Source: a bacterium
GTDB lineage: Bacteria; BMS3Abin14
Length of the DNA stretch: 40,469 nt
Direction of reading: 5' to 3'
Assembly: GCA_029210965.1 (NCBI GenBank)
Contig: JARGFZ010000010.1
Location: 45,324-85,792, forward strand
Numbering within the stretch: the first letter of the stretch is position 1; every line of letters begins with the position of its first letter. The notes under the pieces were generated by a model. That model was not told where the DNA came from. It saw only the letters and a list, made by a program, of their open reading frames with translations, and did not search any database. Shown here piece after piece: positions 4,034-39,285 of the stretch. The translations under genes were made by a program, and so were the position numbers.

Positions 4034-4061
4034 GAATCTCAAATCTCACATCTCATATCTC
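4034..4061 (+). repeat. 7-bp tandem array, 4 units (left arm of an inverted pair)
   Basis: Units GAATCTC, AAATCTC, ACATCTC, ATATCTC. Roughly complementary to the array at 4118-4145. Confidence 0.85.
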
Positions 4062-4117
4062 AAATAAATCGAAAAGGCTGAATGCATTTACTTGAGAGAT
4101 TTTATTTAAGGTTTCTT

Positions 4118-4145
4118 TCTGAGATCTGAGATCTGAGATCTGAGA
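4118..4145 (-). repeat. 7-bp tandem array, 4 perfect units, 2 nt from the znuB-like stop
   Basis: Four identical TCTGAGA units, ending two bases before the stop codon (4148-4150) of the minus-strand permease gene. Inverted relative to 4034-4061. Confidence 0.9.
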
Positions 4146-4147
4146 TC

Positions 4148-4957
4148 CTACCCGCTTTTCCTCAGGAAACGGCTCCCGGCCCACACCAGCCCGAAAACGA
4201 CCGCTTCCAGAAGGACGATGGAACCGGATGACGGTATGTCCATGTAGTAACTGATCGCGAGACCGCCCAGTACGGAGAGTATTCCAACCGCGCAGGACCA
4301 GATAATTGCCATGCGGAAGTTACCCGCCATCTGAAGAGCTGTTGCCGCGGGAATGACGATGAGAGCTGCTACCAGAAGAAGTCCCACCACCTTCATGGCC
4401 AGAACCACCGTTACGGCGCTAAGTACGGCAAGAAGGAGATCCAGCCGTCGGACCGGTATCCCCGATGTTCTGGCAAGCTCCCGGTCGAATGTAATGGCCA
4501 CCAGGTCATGATAGTTCAGGACAACGGTGAGCACGACAGCAATAGCGAGGATGGCAGAGGTCCACACCTCACCAGGACCGATAGCAAGGATATTCCCGAA
4601 GAGGTAGGAGAACAGCTCCACGCTGAACTGACCTGAGACGCTGGCGATGACGATCCCAAGGGCGAAACCTACAGAAGAAACGATCCCTATGGCGGTGTCG
4701 CCGTGCAACCCTGCCGCTTCCCGGAGTTTGAGCAGGAGGATAGCGGCAATGATCGCCACCACAAGGGCCGTCCAGACAGGGGAGACGTTCAGCAGCAGAC
4801 CCAGGGCCACGCCGCCAAAGGTGACGTGGGCCAGGCCGTGCCCAAGCATGGCATCACGACGCAGCACGAGAAAGACGCCCAGGACGCTGCACGCCACGGC
4901 GATGAGAAGACCCGCTGCGATGGCTCTTTGCATGAATGAAAAAGCTAATATCTCCAT
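4148..4957 (-). CDS. znuB: metal ABC transporter permease, ZnuB/MntB family
   Basis: 269 aa with about eight hydrophobic segments along the whole length; typical ABC-3 family permease (ZnuB, MntB, PsaC type). Recognisable family stretches: MLGHGLAHVTFGGVALG (residues 33-49), AAGLHGDTAIGIVSS and the C-terminal LLVAALIVIPAATALQMA. Forms the inner-membrane channel for Zn(II), Mn(II) or Fe(II) delivered by the binding protein encoded at 6114-7016. ATG start with AAGGA 5 nt upstream. Same strand and order as the other transporter genes but separated from the ATPase gene by 408 bp, an unusual gap for this operon. The metal cannot be decided from the permease. Confidence 0.88.
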   Translation of the reverse strand: MEILAFSFMQRAIAAGLLIAVACSVLGVFLVLRRDAMLGHGLAHVTFGGVALGLLLNVSPVWTALVVAIIAAILLLKLREAAGLHGDTAIGIVSSVGFALGIVIASVSGQFSVELFSYLFGNILAIGPGEVWTSAILAIAVVLTVVLNYHDLVAITFDRELARTSGIPVRRLDLLLAVLSAVTVVLAMKVVGLLLVAALIVIPAATALQMAGNFRMAIIWSCAVGILSVLGGLAISYYMDIPSSGSIVLLEAVVFGLVWAGSRFLRKSG

Positions 4958-29450: not shown

Positions 29451-30550
29451 AACTGGTCATCGCTGGAGGAGGGACCGGGGGCCATCTTTTCCCCGGGGTT
29501 GCTCTTGCCAGCGAGTTCCAACGGCTGGTGACCGATGTGGAAGTAATTTTTATTGGCGCGGATAGAGGGTTGGAAACCAAAGTGATACCGGCCTTGGGGT
29601 ATGAGCTTGTAACCTTGCCTGTTCGCGGTGTTGTGGGACACGGATTTTTCGGGGGAGTCGCACGAGGGGCAGTTCTTGTTGCGGCTTGTTTTAAGGCGTA
29701 CTGGATCCTGGGACGCTTGAAACCGGATCTGGTACTCGGTGTGGGAGGCTACGCTTCAGTCCCCGCGGTCCTGGCTGCGGCTGTAAGAGGGCTGCCACGA
29801 TCCATACTGGAACAAAACGTCTCACCGGGAAGGGCCAACCAGGTCCTGGCGCGATTTGTCCACAGGATCTATCAGGGTTTCGCCAGTCGCAGCGAGGTGT
29901 TCCCGGTGGAAAAGACCAGGGTAACCGGTAACCCAATTAGAACTGAAATTCTCCCTGCCGAGGGGCTGACACGACCACCGGGGCGAAGGACGCTCCTTAT
30001 ACTGGGAGGAAGTCAGGGAGCGATGCAGATAAATGAGCTGGCCATGGAGGTCGTCGGGCGGTTGAAAAATGAGTTTTCGAATCTGAAGGTGATCCATCAG
30101 ACAGGTCATGCCCACGAGAAAACGATCCGGGAAGGCTACCTGAAGGCCGGCGTGGATGTGGAAGTGGTACCGTTCATTACCGATATGGCCGATGCCTATG
30201 CAAGGGCAGATATTTGTCTTTCGAGAGCAGGTGCTATGGCTATTTCAGAGCTTACCGCATCGGGCCTGCCTGCCGTGCTCATCCCCTTTCCCCATGCGGC
30301 GGGAGGACACCAGGGACTCAACGCAAGGTGGATGGAGGAAAGGGGTGCGGCAGTTGTCATCGAACCTGCCGAAGCGACTTTAGAACAGCTCTATGAGCAG
30401 TTAAGAAAGCTGTTGGATACTCCCGGCCTTCTGGCTGATATGGCCCGGGCAAGCGCGAAAGCCGGTATCCGGAACGCGGCGGAGAGGATCGTGACGGAAG
30501 AACTGAAAAGGCTGGGATACATGGGACGCGGAGACGCGGAGACACGGTGA
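29447..30550 (+). CDS. murG: UDP-GlcNAc:lipid I N-acetylglucosaminyltransferase MurG
   Basis: 367 aa GT-B glycosyltransferase: GGGTGGHLFPG loop at residues 7-17, LEQNVSPGRANQVLA, LILGGSQGAMQIN, SRAGAMAISELTASGLPAVLIPFPHA. Makes lipid II on the cytoplasmic side of the inner membrane. The last residues (GRGDAETR) and the stop codon come from a 4-unit 8-bp tandem array (30523-30554), so the native C-terminus was probably a little shorter. ATGA overlap with ftsW; followed by a 505-bp repeat block that breaks the otherwise tight cluster. Confidence 0.97.
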   Translation: MKLVIAGGGTGGHLFPGVALASEFQRLVTDVEVIFIGADRGLETKVIPALGYELVTLPVRGVVGHGFFGGVARGAVLVAACFKAYWILGRLKPDLVLGVGGYASVPAVLAAAVRGLPRSILEQNVSPGRANQVLARFVHRIYQGFASRSEVFPVEKTRVTGNPIRTEILPAEGLTRPPGRRTLLILGGSQGAMQINELAMEVVGRLKNEFSNLKVIHQTGHAHEKTIREGYLKAGVDVEVVPFITDMADAYARADICLSRAGAMAISELTASGLPAVLIPFPHAAGGHQGLNARWMEERGAAVVIEPAEATLEQLYEQLRKLLDTPGLLADMARASAKAGIRNAAERIVTEELKRLGYMGRGDAETR

Positions 30551-30554
30551 CACG
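30523..30554 (+). repeat. 8-bp tandem array, 4 units, containing the murG stop codon
   Basis: Units GGGACGCG, GAGACGCG, GAGACACG, GTGACACG. The TGA stop is at 30548-30550. Confidence 0.85.
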
Positions 30555-30572
30555 GGAAAATCTTAAGTGGGC

Positions 30573-30642
30573 GTAGGGCGTGGAGCGTAGGGCGTAGGGC
30601 GTGGAGCGTGGAGCGTAGGGCGTAGGGCGTGGAGCGTAGGGC
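30573..30642 (-). repeat. 7-bp tandem array, 10 units of two alternating words
   Basis: Words GTAGGGC (a) and GTGGAGC (b) in the order a b a a b b a a b a. The longest heptamer array here; both words are single-step variants of each other. Confidence 0.95.
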
Positions 30643-30689
30643 GGAAAGAGATCAAGCACGGAAGCACGGAGACACGATAATCACCCCTC

Positions 30690-30728
30690 CGTCATTCCGG
30701 GCCGAGTGAAACGATGACCCGGAATCCA
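30690..30728. repeat. CCGGAATCC palindromic repeat, copy 1
   Basis: CGTCATTCCGGG and GATGACCCGGAATCCAG form an imperfect hairpin. A near-identical copy lies at 40164-40204. This type is widespread in environmental genomes. Confidence 0.8.
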
Positions 30729-30835
30729 GGGGTAAAGCACAGTTTATATAAAGGCGAATGTTTTCACCACAGAGACGCGGAGACAAGCGGAGAAAATCTT
30801 AGCCAGGGATAAATCGGTCGTTGGGGAGAGTAAAA

Positions 30836-30907
30836 GACACAGTGACACGTAGACACTTGGATACTTAGACACGTAGATACTTAGACACGTAGACACATAG
30901 ATATGGG
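30836..30907 (+). repeat. 8-bp tandem array, 8-9 units
   Basis: Units GACACAGT, GACACGTA, GACACTTG, GATACTTA, GACACGTA, GATACTTA, GACACGTA, GACACATA, then GATATGGG. Same GACACG core as the array at the murG end. Confidence 0.92.
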
Positions 30908-30996
30908 GAAAGAGCATTAAAGGAAAGATGAAAAGTGGATGGTGAAAACATGAAAGTGAGCAGTGCATTAGTGGAAAAGTTCAGGAAGTGCACTCG

Positions 30997-31024
30997 TTCT
31001 ACGTTCTACATTCTACATTCCACA
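30997..31024 (+). repeat. 7-bp tandem array, 4 units
   Basis: Units TTCTACG, TTCTACA, TTCTACA, TTCCACA; almost the same as the arrays at 9602 and 15165. Confidence 0.9.
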
Positions 31025-31055
31025 TTCGCGACGACGAAACAGTGAGGAGTCGCAC

Positions 31056-34268: not shown

Positions 34269-35137
34269 AGCGCAACACATCCACAAGCAGAAAGAGAGCT
34301 GGAAAGCCGGCCAAGCGGGTTTCCATGGTCAAAAAGAAGAGGACAGGTTTTTCTTTCCGGCACTACCTGGTCAGGGGCTGGTGGATCTTCAGAGGTGGTG
34401 CGGTGGGTGTACTTGCCCTGGGTATTTTCTATGGCGGTTACCTGGGTTTCGGAAAGGTTATGGGTCTTCAGTCCCTGTCTGTGAGGACCGTAGAGGTTGA
34501 AGGGTGTCAGGATGTTCAGCCGGACGCTATCCGCCGGCTTGCTGGAGTTGTGAAAGGAGATCCCCTCCTGAGGATCGATCTGAAGGAGGTTCGCAGGAAG
34601 GTGATCACACACCCATGGGTCAAGGAGGCCACCGTGGTGCGAGAGCTTCCGGATACCCTGAGAATATCTGTGAAGGAGAGGGCTCCTGTAGCTGTTGTCC
34701 TTGGCCGGCAATTCGCTTTGGTTGATAACGAGGGGGTTGTTCTCAGTCTTCACACTTCCTACCCCAAGGGGTATCCGGTTATCACCGGGATCCCGGAGTC
34801 CGGAGTGCCGGGGCGGCAGATGATCGAAGCGCAGCCAGCCATAGAAATTCTTCGAAATATTCCCCAGTCCGGTCTTATCGGACAGGAACGGATATCGGAA
34901 CTTGGTGTGGAAGGGGAACTGGTCAAGGTTTCTCTCATGGGCAGCGGTACTGTTCTTGTTTTTAAACAGGGGAGCGTGGATGTCCAGATGAAAAAGTTGG
35001 CTCGTCTCATGGAAGCAGGGATTTTTGATACCCGTTCTGCCGGATACGATCTGAGGTTTGCCGATCGTGTCGTTGGAATGCCTGAAAGAAAGCATGATGC
35101 GTCAGGGGGGAACGGTCTTTCCCCTGCGGGAGGATAA
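34265..35137 (+). CDS. ftsQ: cell division protein FtsQ
   Basis: 290 aa. Very basic cytoplasmic N-terminus (1-35, many K/R), one membrane span (about 42-62), then a POTRA domain (about 72-140, LSVRTVEVEGCQDVQPDAIRRLAGVVKGDPLLRIDL...VKERAPVAVV) and the beta domain. Links FtsL/FtsB to the divisome in the periplasm. GTG start, overlapping ddl by 4 bp; stops 4 bp before ftsA. Confidence 0.94.
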   Translation: MKRNTSTSRKRAGKPAKRVSMVKKKRTGFSFRHYLVRGWWIFRGGAVGVLALGIFYGGYLGFGKVMGLQSLSVRTVEVEGCQDVQPDAIRRLAGVVKGDPLLRIDLKEVRRKVITHPWVKEATVVRELPDTLRISVKERAPVAVVLGRQFALVDNEGVVLSLHTSYPKGYPVITGIPESGVPGRQMIEAQPAIEILRNIPQSGLIGQERISELGVEGELVKVSLMGSGTVLVFKQGSVDVQMKKLARLMEAGIFDTRSAGYDLRFADRVVGMPERKHDASGGNGLSPAGG

Positions 35138-35141
35138 GCAG

Positions 35142-36374
35142 ATGGCCAAAGGTAAGGAGAGGATCGTGGTAGGACTGGATATTGGCACCACCAAGATCTG
35201 TGCGGTGGTGGCTGCTGTGGGAAACGGCGGGAAGTGCGAGATCATCGGTATCGGGACCACACCGTCCAGGGGGCTTCGGAAGGGTGTGGTGATAAACATC
35301 GATTACACGGTGGACTCCATCAAGAAGGCGATAGAAGAGGCTGAACTCATGGCCGGGGTGCCCATACAGGGAGTCTATGCAGGGATCGCCGGCGGCCACA
35401 TCAAGGGGTTTAACAGCCATGGTGTCGTAGCTGTTAAAAACCGGGAGGTTTCAAAGAAGGATATTGAGCGGGTTATCGATGCCGCGCAGGCTGTGGCCAT
35501 GCCCCTTGACCGTGAAGTGATCCATATCCTGCCCCAGGAGTACATCGTCGATGATCAGGATGGAATAAGAGACCCTCTCGGCATGTCAGGAGTCAGGCTC
35601 GAGGCCCGGGTCCACATCGTTACCGGGGCAGTCACCTCTGCCCAGAACGTCATCAAGTGCTGCCACCGTGCGGGGCTGGACGTACTGGATATCGTATTGG
35701 AACCTCTGGCTGCGGCCGACGCGGTGCTCACGGAGGAAGAGAAAGAACTGGGTGTAGCCCTGGTTGATATCGGCGGGGGAACCACCGATGTGGCTATCCT
35801 GGGGGACGGAAGCATCAAGCACACAGCGGTGCTGGCCCTGGGAGGCGTCAACCTGACCAACGATATTGCTTACGGTCTCAGGACACCCACGACGGAAGCG
35901 GAAAAGATCAAGAAAAAATACGGTTGCGCCCTCACTGATATGGTGGGGGAGGATGAGGTTGTGGAGGTTCTCTCCGTGGGAGGACACAAACCCAGGACCG
36001 TTTCGAGAATGTCCCTGGCTGAGATCATCGAACCGAGGGCAGAGGAGTTTTTCGACCTTATCAACCGGGAGCTCCTGAAGTTTGGTTATGAGGACAGGAT
36101 CGCATCAGGAGTGGTCATCACCGGAGGAACGGTGATCATGCCGGGTATGACGGAACTGGCCGAACAGGTGTTTAATCTGCCTGTTCGCCGGGGAACACCG
36201 ATGGATATTGGCGGGCTGATAGATGTGGTTAACAGCCCCATGTATGCCACGGCGGTGGGGCTTGTAAAATACGCCGCCACCCATGCCAGCGAAACCGGGT
36301 TCGGGCACAACGAAACAGGGATCTTCGACAAGATCGTTGTGAAGATGAAGGGATGGTTAAAAGACTTTTTCTAA
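35142..36374 (+). CDS. ftsA: cell division protein FtsA
   Basis: 410 aa from ATG 35142 (GGGAGG 8 nt upstream; the longer frame from 35058 lies inside ftsQ). Actin-like ATPase: phosphate loops GLDIGTTK (residues ~9-16) and VDIGGGTTDVA, adenosine loop GGTVIMPGM, the FtsA-specific 1C domain in between, and the C-terminal amphipathic membrane-targeting helix FDKIVVKMKGWLKDFF. Tethers FtsZ to the inner membrane. Followed by an inverted pair of heptamer arrays before ftsZ. Confidence 0.97.
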   Translation: MAKGKERIVVGLDIGTTKICAVVAAVGNGGKCEIIGIGTTPSRGLRKGVVINIDYTVDSIKKAIEEAELMAGVPIQGVYAGIAGGHIKGFNSHGVVAVKNREVSKKDIERVIDAAQAVAMPLDREVIHILPQEYIVDDQDGIRDPLGMSGVRLEARVHIVTGAVTSAQNVIKCCHRAGLDVLDIVLEPLAAADAVLTEEEKELGVALVDIGGGTTDVAILGDGSIKHTAVLALGGVNLTNDIAYGLRTPTTEAEKIKKKYGCALTDMVGEDEVVEVLSVGGHKPRTVSRMSLAEIIEPRAEEFFDLINRELLKFGYEDRIASGVVITGGTVIMPGMTELAEQVFNLPVRRGTPMDIGGLIDVVNSPMYATAVGLVKYAATHASETGFGHNETGIFDKIVVKMKGWLKDFF

Positions 36375-36376
36375 GG

Positions 36377-36452
36377 GATCTCAGATCTCACATCTCAGAT
36401 CTCAAAGAGCAACCATGGTCTTTTTGAGATTTGAGATTTGAAATATGAGATT
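36377..36452. repeat. inverted pair of 7-bp arrays (4 + 4 units) between ftsA and ftsZ
   Basis: Left 36377-36404: GATCTCA, GATCTCA, CATCTCA, GATCTCA, starting 2 nt after the ftsA stop. Right 36425-36452: TGAGATT, TGAGATT, TGAAATA, TGAGATT. The 20-nt spacer carries ACCATGGT. Together they can fold into a long, slightly imperfect hairpin in the ftsA-ftsZ transcript. Confidence 0.9.
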
Positions 36453-36505
36453 CGTAATAAGCGAGAGCGAGCCGGGATCGCTCGAGTTCATTGGGAGGTG
36501 AACTG

Positions 36506-37654
36506 ATGTTTACTTTTGCGGAAGACAGCCAGGATCTCAAGGCCAGGATCAAGGTCATTGGGGTCGGCGGCGGGGGCGGGAACGCCTTGAACACAATGAT
36601 CCAGTCCAGTTTGAAGAACGTGGAGTTTATCTCGGCCAATACGGATGCACAGGCCCTGAAAACTTCACTGGCCCCCACCAGGATACAGATGGGTATCCAG
36701 GTGACTCACGGTCTTGGAGCGGGTGCTGATCCTGACGTGGGCCGCAAGGCGGCCGAGGAGAGCGAAGAGCAGCTCAGAGAGAGCCTCTCCGGTACCGAGA
36801 TGGTGTTCATCACCGCCGGCATGGGAGGGGGAACCGGGACAGGAGCCGCGCCCATCGTGGCCAAAATTGCCAAAGAGTCGGGTGCTTTGACCGTGGGCGT
36901 GGTCACCAAGCCTTTTGACTTCGAGGGCAGAGTCAGGCTGAAAAACGCCGAGGACGGTCTCGAAGAGCTGCGCAAGAATGTTGATACTCTTATCGTGATC
37001 CCCAACGACCGGATCTTCTCGGTGGTCAAACACGGCTCCAGGGCCACCGACGCCTTTGCGATCGTGGATCAAGTTCTTAACTGCGCTGTGAAAGGCATCA
37101 GCGATCTCATCACGAAACCGGGACGGATCAACCTGGACTTTGCCGACGTCAAGCGCATCATGGCGGGCAAGGGACGGGCGCTCATGGGAACAGGGGTTGC
37201 TGATGGGGATGACCGGGCTGCCGAGGCAGCTCAAACAGCCATTTCGAGTCCCCTTCTGGAGGACAACAGCATCGATGGCGCAACCGGCGTGCTCATTAAC
37301 ATCACTGCCGGCTCCGACATTGGTATCCAGGAGATCCAGCACGCCTCATCCATTATCCGCGCCGCTGTCCACGCCGATGCCGAGATCATTTTCGGATGGG
37401 TTGAGGACGACACGGTAGGGGATGAACTCATGGTTACCGTCATCGCCACAGGTTTCGGCCGGGAAGCCGGTCACAAGGGGCGGGACCTGATCCACCCCCA
37501 CAGGGGTGACAGATCCAGCGATTCCGAGATCCCGGCCTATGTCCGTAAAAATGAAGCGGAAAATCCCCTCGATAAGGTGAGGCGGCCGTCGGTGACCCTC
37601 ATCGAAGAGGAAGAGTTCGAGGTTCCGGCCTTTTTAAGGCGCCAGGCGGATTGA
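36506..37654 (+). CDS. ftsZ: cell division GTPase FtsZ
   Basis: 382 aa from ATG 36506 with GGGAGGTGA 5 nt upstream. Tubulin-like: [22 protein letters not shown]-box [12 protein letters not shown] (about 104-115), [12 protein letters not shown], and the T7-loop region [11 protein letters not shown]. The short C-terminal linker leads to the conserved tail FEVPAFLRR, which binds FtsA and other partners. Forms the Z ring. The 131-bp gap after ftsA may hold its own promoter; the hairpin there may change the FtsA:FtsZ ratio. Confidence 0.98.
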
Positions 37655-37660
37655 TTTCCC

Positions 37661-39217
37661 GTGCCTGCAAGCATGGTTTCACAAAAGACCTGGATCTCGC
37701 CGCCACCCCGAAGCGGCGGTATGAAGGTTGCCGTGGCCTACCCCAACAGTTATCGGGTGGGCATGCCAAACCTCGGATACCAGGCAATTCTCAGGACTTT
37801 CCTGGAGGACCACAGGTTTGATGCCAGGAGAGTTTTCTGGGATGGGCGCTCCCTCAGTTTCCCGGATGGAGGGCGATCCCTTGACCAGTTCGATGTCATC
37901 GCCTTTTCCGTTTCCTTTCAGCCGGACATGGTTCACCTCCCACGGCTGCTGGAAGCGGGAAGGGTGGGGCTTGAAAATCCAATAACCAGGCCTCTCCTCA
38001 TCGGAGGAGGGGTGGCAGTCACCATAAACCCTGAAACCTGTCATCATCTTTTCGACCTCATTGTCCTCGGGGACGCAGAACCTGTCCTCCCGGTATTAAA
38101 GGATCAGCTCCTGGCCGAGGGCCCAGGCAACGACAGAACCGCTTTCCTGGACAGTATGGTAAGGGTGCCGGGTGTCTACCTGCCTGGCAGATATAAAATG
38201 GAGCCTGTGCCCGGCAGCCCCTTTCTCAGGACCCGCCCCGACCCGGGAACCCCGTCCACCATCGTAACGGCAGCCGTGGGCGATCTGGATGACAACCCCG
38301 CCCGGCCGGCCGTGGTCAGCACCGATTCGGAGTTCGGGAACCTATATCCGCTGGAGGTTTCAAGGGGATGTCCGGCAGGCTGCCTCTTTTGCGCGGCCGG
38401 TTCGGTTTGCGGTCCCGTGCGGTTCCTGGGGATGGACGCCTTCGTTCGGGAAGCAGAGCTTGGGCTTCATTACCGCAAGACTATCGGATTGGTAGGGACG
38501 GCTGTGTCCTACCACCCGAAGCTGGAAGAGATGGCCGGCTATCTCCTGGAGCAGGAAGGCAGCTTTTCCCCCTCTTCCATCCGGGCCGAAAGGGTCACCC
38601 CGAAGCTGGCAGCCCTGCTGGTTGCCGCCCGGCACCGGACAGTGTCTCTTGCTCCCGAGGCCGGAACTGTGGAGCTTCGGAGCGCCATCGGTAAACGGTT
38701 TTCCGATGGACAGTTCCTCGAGAAAGTGGACATACTCCTCGATGCGGGAATTCCCAACCTCAAACTGTATTTCATGGTGGGATTGCCCGAAGAGTCAGAC
38801 AGTGATATTGAGGGGATCGTGGAGCTTGCCGTAAAACTGAGAGAGAGGATGCTCCACTTTGGCAGGCCCAGGGGGAAGGTGGGCACTTTAACGATAAGCG
38901 TCAACCCCTTCGTACCCAAACCGCGGACAGCTTTTGAAAGGGCTCCCATGGCCGCGGAATCCATACTCAACGGGCGGATGAAAACAGTGAGATCCAGACT
39001 CGGCCCCGTTGGAGGGGTCAGGGTCCAGACGGGCTCTGTGAGGGGCGCTTACCTGGACGCTCTTCTTTCCCTGGGAGACAGGTCGGTGGCCGAGGTGCTG
39101 GACAACCTGCCCGCCGGGGGTGTATCAATGAAGCGCCTGACAAAGATCATCCCCGCCGCGGAGCAGATCCTCTACGGACGTGAATCAGGGCGGTTACCGT
39201 GGGGGTTTATAAAATAG
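37661..39217 (+). CDS. B12-binding-type radical SAM protein
   Basis: 518 aa. N-terminal cobalamin-binding-like domain (about 20-140: VAVAYPNSYRVGMPNLGYQAI, FDVIAFSVSFQPDMVHLPRLLEA, LLIGGGVAVTINPE, FDLIVLGDAE), then a radical SAM barrel with the cluster motif C-x3-C-x2-C in SRGCPAGCLFCAAG (near residue 234-247), and later SLAPEAGT, LKLYFMVGLPEE and ISVNPFVPKPRTAFE. Related to the TIGR03960-type family of uncharacterised radical SAM proteins; reaction unknown. GTG start at 37661 (ATG at 37673 possible), 6 bp after ftsZ, so it is probably cotranscribed with division genes. Stop codon lies at the edge of a heptamer array. Confidence 0.88.
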   Translation: MPASMVSQKTWISPPPRSGGMKVAVAYPNSYRVGMPNLGYQAILRTFLEDHRFDARRVFWDGRSLSFPDGGRSLDQFDVIAFSVSFQPDMVHLPRLLEAGRVGLENPITRPLLIGGGVAVTINPETCHHLFDLIVLGDAEPVLPVLKDQLLAEGPGNDRTAFLDSMVRVPGVYLPGRYKMEPVPGSPFLRTRPDPGTPSTIVTAAVGDLDDNPARPAVVSTDSEFGNLYPLEVSRGCPAGCLFCAAGSVCGPVRFLGMDAFVREAELGLHYRKTIGLVGTAVSYHPKLEEMAGYLLEQEGSFSPSSIRAERVTPKLAALLVAARHRTVSLAPEAGTVELRSAIGKRFSDGQFLEKVDILLDAGIPNLKLYFMVGLPEESDSDIEGIVELAVKLRERMLHFGRPRGKVGTLTISVNPFVPKPRTAFERAPMAAESILNGRMKTVRSRLGPVGGVRVQTGSVRGAYLDALLSLGDRSVAEVLDNLPAGGVSMKRLTKIIPAAEQILYGRESGRLPWGFIK

Positions 39218-39236
39218 CCCAAAGCCCAAAGACCAA
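39216..39236 (-). repeat. 7-bp tandem array, 3 units, overlapping a stop codon
   Basis: Units AGCCCAA, AGCCCAA, AGACCAA; the first unit begins inside the TAG stop (39215-39217) of the radical SAM gene. Confidence 0.8.
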
Positions 39237-39257
39237 AGAGGGCAACAAACTCTTTCG

Positions 39258-39285
39258 TTGGACCTTGGACATTGGACCTTGGACT
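39258..39285 (-). repeat. 7-bp tandem array, 4 units
   Basis: Units TTGGACC, TTGGACA, TTGGACC, TTGGACT, 24 bp before the maf start. The same word is found around the REP element near 14872-14935 on the minus strand. Confidence 0.9.

Follow-up and report, generated by a model that had tools for sequence, protein, structure and literature searches.

What is the long hairpin that separates ftsA from ftsZ in the window, i.e., in the whole stretch of 40,469 nucleotides of bacterial DNA that was analysed? It could be a device in the ftsA-ftsZ message that sets the level of FtsZ, as a reading of the sequence alone had proposed, or it could belong to the DNA and appear in the message only because the operon is transcribed. 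We arrive, with a probability of roughly 0.6, at the latter answer: the hairpin is a single member of a family of imperfectly palindromic DNA cassettes that are scattered over the genome and turn over rapidly, a family that is REP/REPIN-like but unusually built and rewritten, and the RNA hairpin is a by-product.

The ftsA-ftsZ gap in the window and in relatives

The left arm of the hairpin begins 2 nt after the ftsA stop codon with the units GATCTCA, GATCTCA, CATCTCA and GATCTCA, and the right arm, in which the third core is imperfect (TGAAAT), completes the cassette (Table 1). The sequence-only reading had described four ATCTCA-type heptamers after ftsA that face four TGAGAT-type heptamers 20 nt later, and the arrays are found as described. 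It had also proposed RNA folding of the region 36370-36510, and here the outcome is favourable: the fold of this 141-nt RNA has an energy of -54.5 kcal/mol, which is far better than for shuffled sequences (z = -5.05; 0 of 200 shuffles equally good). A stop of transcription at the hairpin, which had been suggested as well, receives no support, since a pattern scan for an intrinsic terminator (a G+C-rich stem followed by a T run) finds none at 36377-36452. Rfam gives 0 matches across the window at gathering scores. Translation of FtsZ most likely starts at the ATG at 36506, behind GGGAGGTGA, rather than at the TTG at 36491 in the ORF list. The comparable pair that had been pointed out in the gap between the flavoprotein and permease genes is also real; it forms a second cassette (4035-4147) with a 57-nt loop, for which the fold of the transcribed strand has a z value of -5.5.

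Table 1. Positions of the cassettes, arrays and neighbouring genes in the window
Feature	Position	Strand	Remarks
ftsA, upstream gene	35058-36374	+	stop codon 36372-36374; Pfam FtsA 2.2e-51
Left arm, four ATCTCA-type heptamers	36377-36404	+	
Cassette loop, 20 nt	36405-36424	+	
Right arm, four TGAGAT-type heptamers (NTGAGAT)	36425-36452	+	cores 36425-36451; fold
Small hairpin GAGCGA-GCCGGGA-TCGCTC, GGG loop	36465-36483	+	shape recurs in 12/12 family members
ftsZ Shine-Dalgarno	36493-36501	+	sequence
ftsZ	36506-37654	+	Pfam Tubulin 6.4e-52, FtsZ_C 3.2e-29; begins at ATG behind Shine-Dalgarno
Second cassette, arm near downstream gene start	4035-4062	-	operon on - strand
Second cassette, arm adjoining stop codon of ABC-3 permease gene (4148-4957)	4118-4147	-	fold
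Third cassette, left array, CCAAAGN word	39216-39239	+	between radical-SAM and maf genes
Third cassette, right array, TTGGACN	39258-39284	+	
Two adjoining heptamer arrays, words CAGNACG and CTNGGAA	20609-20690	+	words non-complementary
Heptamer and octamer arrays sharing one gap	30569-31027	+	GGGCGTA, GACACGNA, TTCTACN

The gap was read in twelve genomes of the family: G000, which is the genome of the window, G001 to G010, and the genome of L044 (G011 has no FtsZ match). A clear cassette occurs in six of them (G000, G001, G002, G004, G006 and G008), five have a gap without cassette (G003, G005, G007, G009 and G010), and the L044 genome has a heptamer array with no matching partner. The six cassettes are all 75-78 nt long, their folds range from -25.2 to -38.1 kcal/mol, and the length of the gap is 109-117 nt in five of the six carriers. 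Their words are ATCTCAG in G000, AGTCCAG in G001, ATCTCAA in G002, a decayed ATCTCAG in G004, ATTTCAA in G006 and AGTTCAG in G008. In G001, the nearest relative, both arms are built from AGTCCAG-type words where G000 has ATCTCAG; the flanks are 94-96% identical. When the arms of G000 are paired with those of G001, the energies are -9.9 and -9.8, to be compared with -30.2 and -33.3 for arms from the same genome. Cross-pairing is often the worse of the two, with the exception that the left arm of G000 pairs better with the right arm of G002 than with its own. Conservation of complementarity in relatives had been named as a check on the hairpin, with the absence of compensatory changes counting against it; what is seen is that the two arms change together. 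When six cassettes are drawn at random, their lengths fall within 3 nt in 5 of 100,000 draws (0.005%), or in 0.025% when only short loops are drawn. From this follows that, with the length of 75-78 nt kept in all six, a kept site is favoured over repeated independent insertion.

In G005 the gap holds, in place of a cassette, part of a dispersed repeat of about 70-240 nt, unrelated to the cassettes, which gives 29 HSPs in 440 kb of G000 (for instance L027:14333-14546 and L040:5222-5396), is present in G006 in dozens of copies that are more than 90% alike, and is cleanly absent from G001 at one site. The FtsZ matches of G009, G010 and G005 (L128, L130 and L131) each contain one TGA within the matched stretch, which may be the end of the frame.

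Anatomy and placement of the cassettes

In the 3.19 Mb of G000 the three-unit pattern TGAGATN, with at most one mismatch, has 251 matches, where overlapping matches within one array are counted separately, versus 8 for the reversed control pattern, and CCAAAGN has 64. L027, L035 and L040 were further sources besides the window. In 440 kb of the genome there are 87 exact runs of period 7 and 0 in the shuffle, which is the largest excess of any period; period 6 gives 19 versus 2, period 8 gives 12 versus 0, and periods 14 and 21, both multiples of 7, give 12 versus 0 and 4 versus 0. Periods 4 and 5 show no excess over the shuffle of these 440 kb. A more tolerant detector finds 112 arrays here, and 84 of them fall between the ORFs that a simple greedy caller predicts, although these ORFs cover 86% of the bases. 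Their lengths peak at 4 and 4.5 units (41 and 39 arrays), with only 5 arrays at 5 units, and many seven-base words besides ATCTCA and CCAAAG are present in the genome.

Consider now the typical ATCTCA or CCAAAG cassette, which consists of two inverted arrays of about four heptamers, with one word and with a fixed arm order. In the examined stretches of G000 and G002 the ATCTCA arrays form 30 neighbouring left-right pairs, 0 reversed pairs and 3 right-right neighbours. The two arrays of a pair lie on opposite strands in 30 of 30 cases, the loops between them range from 13 to 197 nt, and there are four units in the left arm of 23 pairs and in the right arm of 25. For CCAAAG the order is left-right in 6 of 6 pairs, which makes it fixed in 36 of 36 for the two families, and 20 of 23 arrays have four units. 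The sequence-only reading was right that only a few positions break the complementarity of the arms; in the 30 ATCTCA pairs these mismatches are in fact regular and tend to fall at every seventh pair. The six core bases are paired in 663 of 684 facing cells. The seventh base forms a Watson-Crick pair in 13 of 84, when 26.7 would be expected from shuffling the arms among the elements, and the fraction of permutations with a value as low as this is 0.001 out of 5000. Most often G faces T or A faces C. This excess of mismatches means that each arm is fairly uniform internally and that the two arms are offset at the seventh base.

When all words are taken together, 20 of 65 neighbouring arrays are complementary, versus 5.8 with partners shuffled. 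About two thirds of the neighbouring arrays are thus non-complementary, and unpaired arrays are common, so that the clean cassette plan best describes the ATCTCA and CCAAAG families. Two rules for the left arm were tried and rejected: CAG occurs in the left-arm words of 10 of 38 complementary pairs (CTG in none) and is therefore not general, and the A-richness of left arms (31 of 38) is carried largely by the ATCTCA word.

As a rule the cassette adjoins a stop codon, and the next Shine-Dalgarno sequence stays outside it. By our ORF calls, the genes that border the 30 ATCTCA pairs are co-directional for 24 pairs, convergent for 4 and divergent for 2. Among the 20 co-directional pairs with loops shorter than 120 nt, 19 have the start of the cassette 1-12 nt past the upstream stop codon, and the distances from these 20 cassettes to the next gene start vary widely, with some of them clustered at 7-28 nt. 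Operon gaps are often little more than a cassette plus a Shine-Dalgarno sequence, and part of the tightness at the stop codon is therefore forced. The density of arrays of all kinds, calculated from 80 of the 112 with the others in ORFs, short gaps or stretch ends, is 1.25 per kb in co-directional, 1.28 in divergent and 2.47 in convergent gaps. At the seventh position on the mRNA strand there are 13 G-U versus 14 A-C oppositions, and the sense strand is the more stable one in 8 of 20 cassettes. With no excess of G-U and with the sense strand favoured in only 8 of 20, there is no sign of selection or tuning on the message.

Exchange of words and its possible causes

The geometry of the cassettes outlives their words, and between close relatives the words are swapped in both arms. 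The clusters compared come from L027, L035, L040 and the window; a counterpart in one or more of the genomes G001, G002 and G006 could be located for 18 of them, and the sites were read by eye. In G001, where 11 clusters were mapped, the word is kept at 4 and is another one at 7, and at 5 of these 7 changed sites the two arms again match each other. Each of the six ATCTCA cassettes among the 11 has a different word in G001, with flanks that are mostly more than 90% identical (range 82-96%), and in G002, at about 77% identity, ATCTCA is retained at 3 of 4 sites. The site L027:2700-2800 has ATCTCAG in G000 and G002, and CCAAAGN in G001 and G006, contrary to kinship. By the same reading the loops differ from copy to copy, and the arms are alike in word only. 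A clean empty site or a target duplication was not found among the compared sites; where a gap is filled in a relative, its counterpart in the window genome had been refilled with other sequence and was not empty.

These differences are also reflected in the totals: for G000, G001, G002 and G006, the TGAGATN matches are 251, 67, 218 and 83, and the CCAAAGN matches 64, 121, 93 and 74. In the examined stretches there are 22-26 arrays per 100 kb in G000, G002 and G006, and 3-6 in G004, G003, G005 and G010. Of 61 genomes, 7 have TGAGATN and 11 have CCAAAGN matches; in the 49 genomes outside the family there is one genome for each pattern, with 1 and 2 matches. Eight further genomes were taken from FtsZ matches, some of them chosen because their loci held arrays, and here TGAGATN has 46 matches in G064 (CSMAG_1299), 19 in G065 (a Nitrospinota MAG), 2 in G067 and none in the other five. 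The loci of G064 and G065 also contain inverted heptamer pairs with other words, from which follows that the plan is not confined to the family of the window genome. The pairs at L272:2704-2789 and L274:2755-2840, in the Nitrospinota MAG and CSMAG_1299, have the words GAACGTC and AGTAACA, and some arrays in the loci of these two genomes sit within long open frames. At L040:17038-17108 the unlike arrays AAGCGTG and TGAGATN are nearly identical in G006, and one flank is 98% identical; judged from this similarity it is possible that the segment was transferred recently, G000 and G006 being otherwise about 70-86% alike there.

What could make both arms change word jointly? Slippage of the polymerase, a reverse transcriptase, a Y1 transposase and copying of one arm from the other each fit poorly. 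Slippage fails on the fixed unit number. RVT_1 is absent from G001, G002, G004, G006 and G008 (completeness 73-97%), and since these genomes carry cassettes a telomerase-like writer is unlikely. The Y1 transposase domain PF01797 is present in 8 of 12 genomes, but its presence does not track the cassette load: it is absent from the cassette-bearing G001 (91% complete) and G008 (80%) and present in the array-poor G003, G005 and G010. A RAYT/Y1 mobiliser was therefore rejected, and from the pattern across the 12 genomes no mobiliser of the cassettes was found. Copying or correction templated by the hairpin predicts that the seventh pair is Watson-Crick, and it fits poorly because this pair is in fact avoided.

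A further circumstance concerns how the cassettes could persist. SbcCD cuts DNA hairpins in Escherichia coli. SbcD (TIGR00619) is above cut-off in 0 of the 12 family genomes G000-G011, three of which have weak sub-threshold matches, versus 8 of 14 controls, and with SbcCD apparently absent long palindromes could persist. The array-poor relatives also score no SbcD, so that its absence is at best permissive.

Weighing the explanations

If the hairpin belongs to a DNA-level family, the cassettes would be made and renewed by a process that recognises them, as with REP/REPIN elements. Two circumstances, we suggest, would make them tolerable: they are placed in untranslated DNA between genes, and the lineage seems to be without SbcCD, which cleaves hairpins. 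Transcription of the operon would give the mRNA a hairpin of about 28 pairs, and its function between ftsA and ftsZ could at most be that of a general spacer or a guard of the 3' end; a generic effect of this kind on the message may exist. The copy numbers (251 TGAGATN and 64 CCAAAGN), the word swaps at 6 of 6 sites in G001 and the lack of tuning on the mRNA strand favour this explanation. Against it stand the missing mobiliser, the lack of a clean empty site or target duplication, and loops that differ from copy to copy, unlike those of a copied element. Selection for a role of the RNA could explain equally well why cassettes stand at stop codons and why 6 of 12 genomes retain one at ftsA-ftsZ. 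The stronger form of such a role, in which the hairpin regulates ftsZ as a pause, attenuator, RNase III site or stabiliser, would account for the strong fold, the matching arms of the six cassettes and the constant gap length in five of them. We regard it as quite unlikely, since the element belongs to a large dispersed family, 5 of 12 gaps do without it, and neither a G-U bias on the mRNA strand nor a terminator pattern is seen. What stands of the sequence-only reading is therefore the hairpin and its recurrence in relatives, and what finds no support is the device specific for ftsZ.

The remaining explanations concern the arrays as such. If the four heptamers of each arm were bound by an oligomeric protein, i.e., a nucleoid protein or global regulator as proposed for paired repeats in Geobacter metallireducens, then the fixed arm order and unit number, the single dominant word per genome and the six-base core with a free seventh base would follow naturally. 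The same TGAGATN word in the two genomes reached through distant FtsZ matches (46 and 19), and the four tandem octamers ending in N and paired on opposite strands in the available part of PMC2700814, point in the same direction. The sites are mostly behind genes rather than at promoters, and quite different words are found at orthologous sites, also in the nearest relative, where one protein would not follow many words; binding by protein is accordingly unlikely as the main explanation. Plain simple-sequence repeats, generated by slippage at seven-base steps and inverted by chance, would agree with the statement, attributed to Mrazek (2007) in PMC4679880, that among long simple repeats heptamers are the most frequent in many bacteria. 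They would give a steady fall in length instead of the peak at 4-4.5 units with its drop from 39 to 5 arrays at 5 units, and neither the complementary neighbours (20 of 65 versus 5.8) nor the fixed order, which makes slippage very improbable. A reverse transcriptase that, in the manner of telomerase, extends the two 3' ends at a break with heptamers predicts the fixed order, one word in both arms and unrelated loops, and for DRT10 it is described, in the accessible part of PMC12632851, that a bacterial enzyme can make tandem-repeat DNA. Because RVT_1 is absent from the cassette-rich G001, G002 and G006 and from the cassette-bearing G004 and G008, we give this scheme hardly any credence. A doubtful but possible extension of the DNA-level explanation is that an active process rewrites the words in place, with site, unit number and loop length persisting and both arms switching within a shared vocabulary. 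The writer would then be an undescribed sequence-copying machine, distinct from hairpin-templated repair and from reverse transcriptases that have the usual domain, and close relatives would speak different dialects (TGAGATN/CCAAAGN of 251/64 in G000 and 67/121 in G001).

Like REP, BIME and REPIN elements, the subject of PMC3116915, PMC3733652 and PMC8266576, the cassettes are high-copy imperfect palindromes between genes, with two inverted units that form a hairpin and with possible effects on mRNA as a by-product. REP elements keep their family sequence. The cassettes differ from them in that the arms are tandem heptamers, the loops differ from copy to copy, the words swap and the Y1 (RAYT-type) transposase does not track; compared by eye, no sequence is conserved over the whole element, the arms sharing only the word and the loops being different. 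Cyanobacterial heptanucleotide STRR repeats are dispersed, with seven-base tandem units, and we know of none that form four-unit inverted pairs.

The nearest published relatives that we found are the paired tandem-repeat sites of G. metallireducens, which, as described in the accessible part of PMC2700814, are of the same kind at a smaller scale: 24, 21 and 8 pairs of sites composed of short tandem units, in which the two sites occupy opposite strands and their spacing varies, interpreted as binding sites of an IHF/HU-like regulator. Class 1 consists of four tandem octamers ending in N, and the class consensus sequences are GTTGCTYN, TCTCCGTS and MTYCTGA; ATCTCAN, CCAAAGN and the other words, compared by eye, do not fit them. 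Shared with the cassettes are the short units with a free last base, four per site in class 1, the opposite strands and variable distance, the presence of several words, and the location between operon genes (proBA), where a sister species has a different repeat in the same gap. In G. metallireducens each class has one word, with 8-24 pairs and octamers in class 1, whereas in the window genome one word reaches 251 pattern matches, the units are mainly heptamers (with some period-8 arrays) and the words change at orthologous sites. The TAACTGA repeats of marine Beggiatoaceae, as far as the available part of PMC4679880 describes them, are likewise intergenic heptamers, in 169 sets and common to distant phyla. 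Apart from a single indirect repeat they are arranged directly, have one word and mostly precede start codons closely, unlike the cassettes, which are inverted pairs of many words behind stop codons. Word swapping of paired heptamers at orthologous sites was not found in the open-access literature searched.

Sequence is the usual criterion by which short palindromic repeats are recognised. In the cassettes the architecture lasts, and the sequence of both arms is exchanged together between genomes with flanking genes that are mostly more than 90% alike. If this is confirmed in strains, there would be a repeat family that sequence searches miss and a copying mechanism outside every class considered here, and the paired repeats of Geobacter would become testable by comparison.

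For ftsZ, a small conserved hairpin now deserves more attention than the big one and is most likely the better candidate for a leader element. It lies directly before the ftsZ Shine-Dalgarno sequence in 12 of 12 genomes (window; L124-L133, L044), with stems that differ in sequence and have 5-8 pairs, or more where the stem runs on, and with a loop that holds GGG. The best pick of the hairpin finder is another hairpin in G000 and G005, which were therefore read by eye, and the pairing totals of 92/92 and 414/888 include these wrong picks. A stem of at least 6 pairs with a GGG-type loop precedes 7.3% of 82 other genes with a Shine-Dalgarno sequence, and 10% in shuffles. A form with GGA in the loop is reminiscent of CsrA sites.

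Octamer arrays also occur beside heptamer ones, at L035:13697-13830, L040:10296-10455 and 30525-30901 of the window (GTGTCGGC, TATCGGAG and GACACGNA), and some of these seem to make inverted pairs as well.
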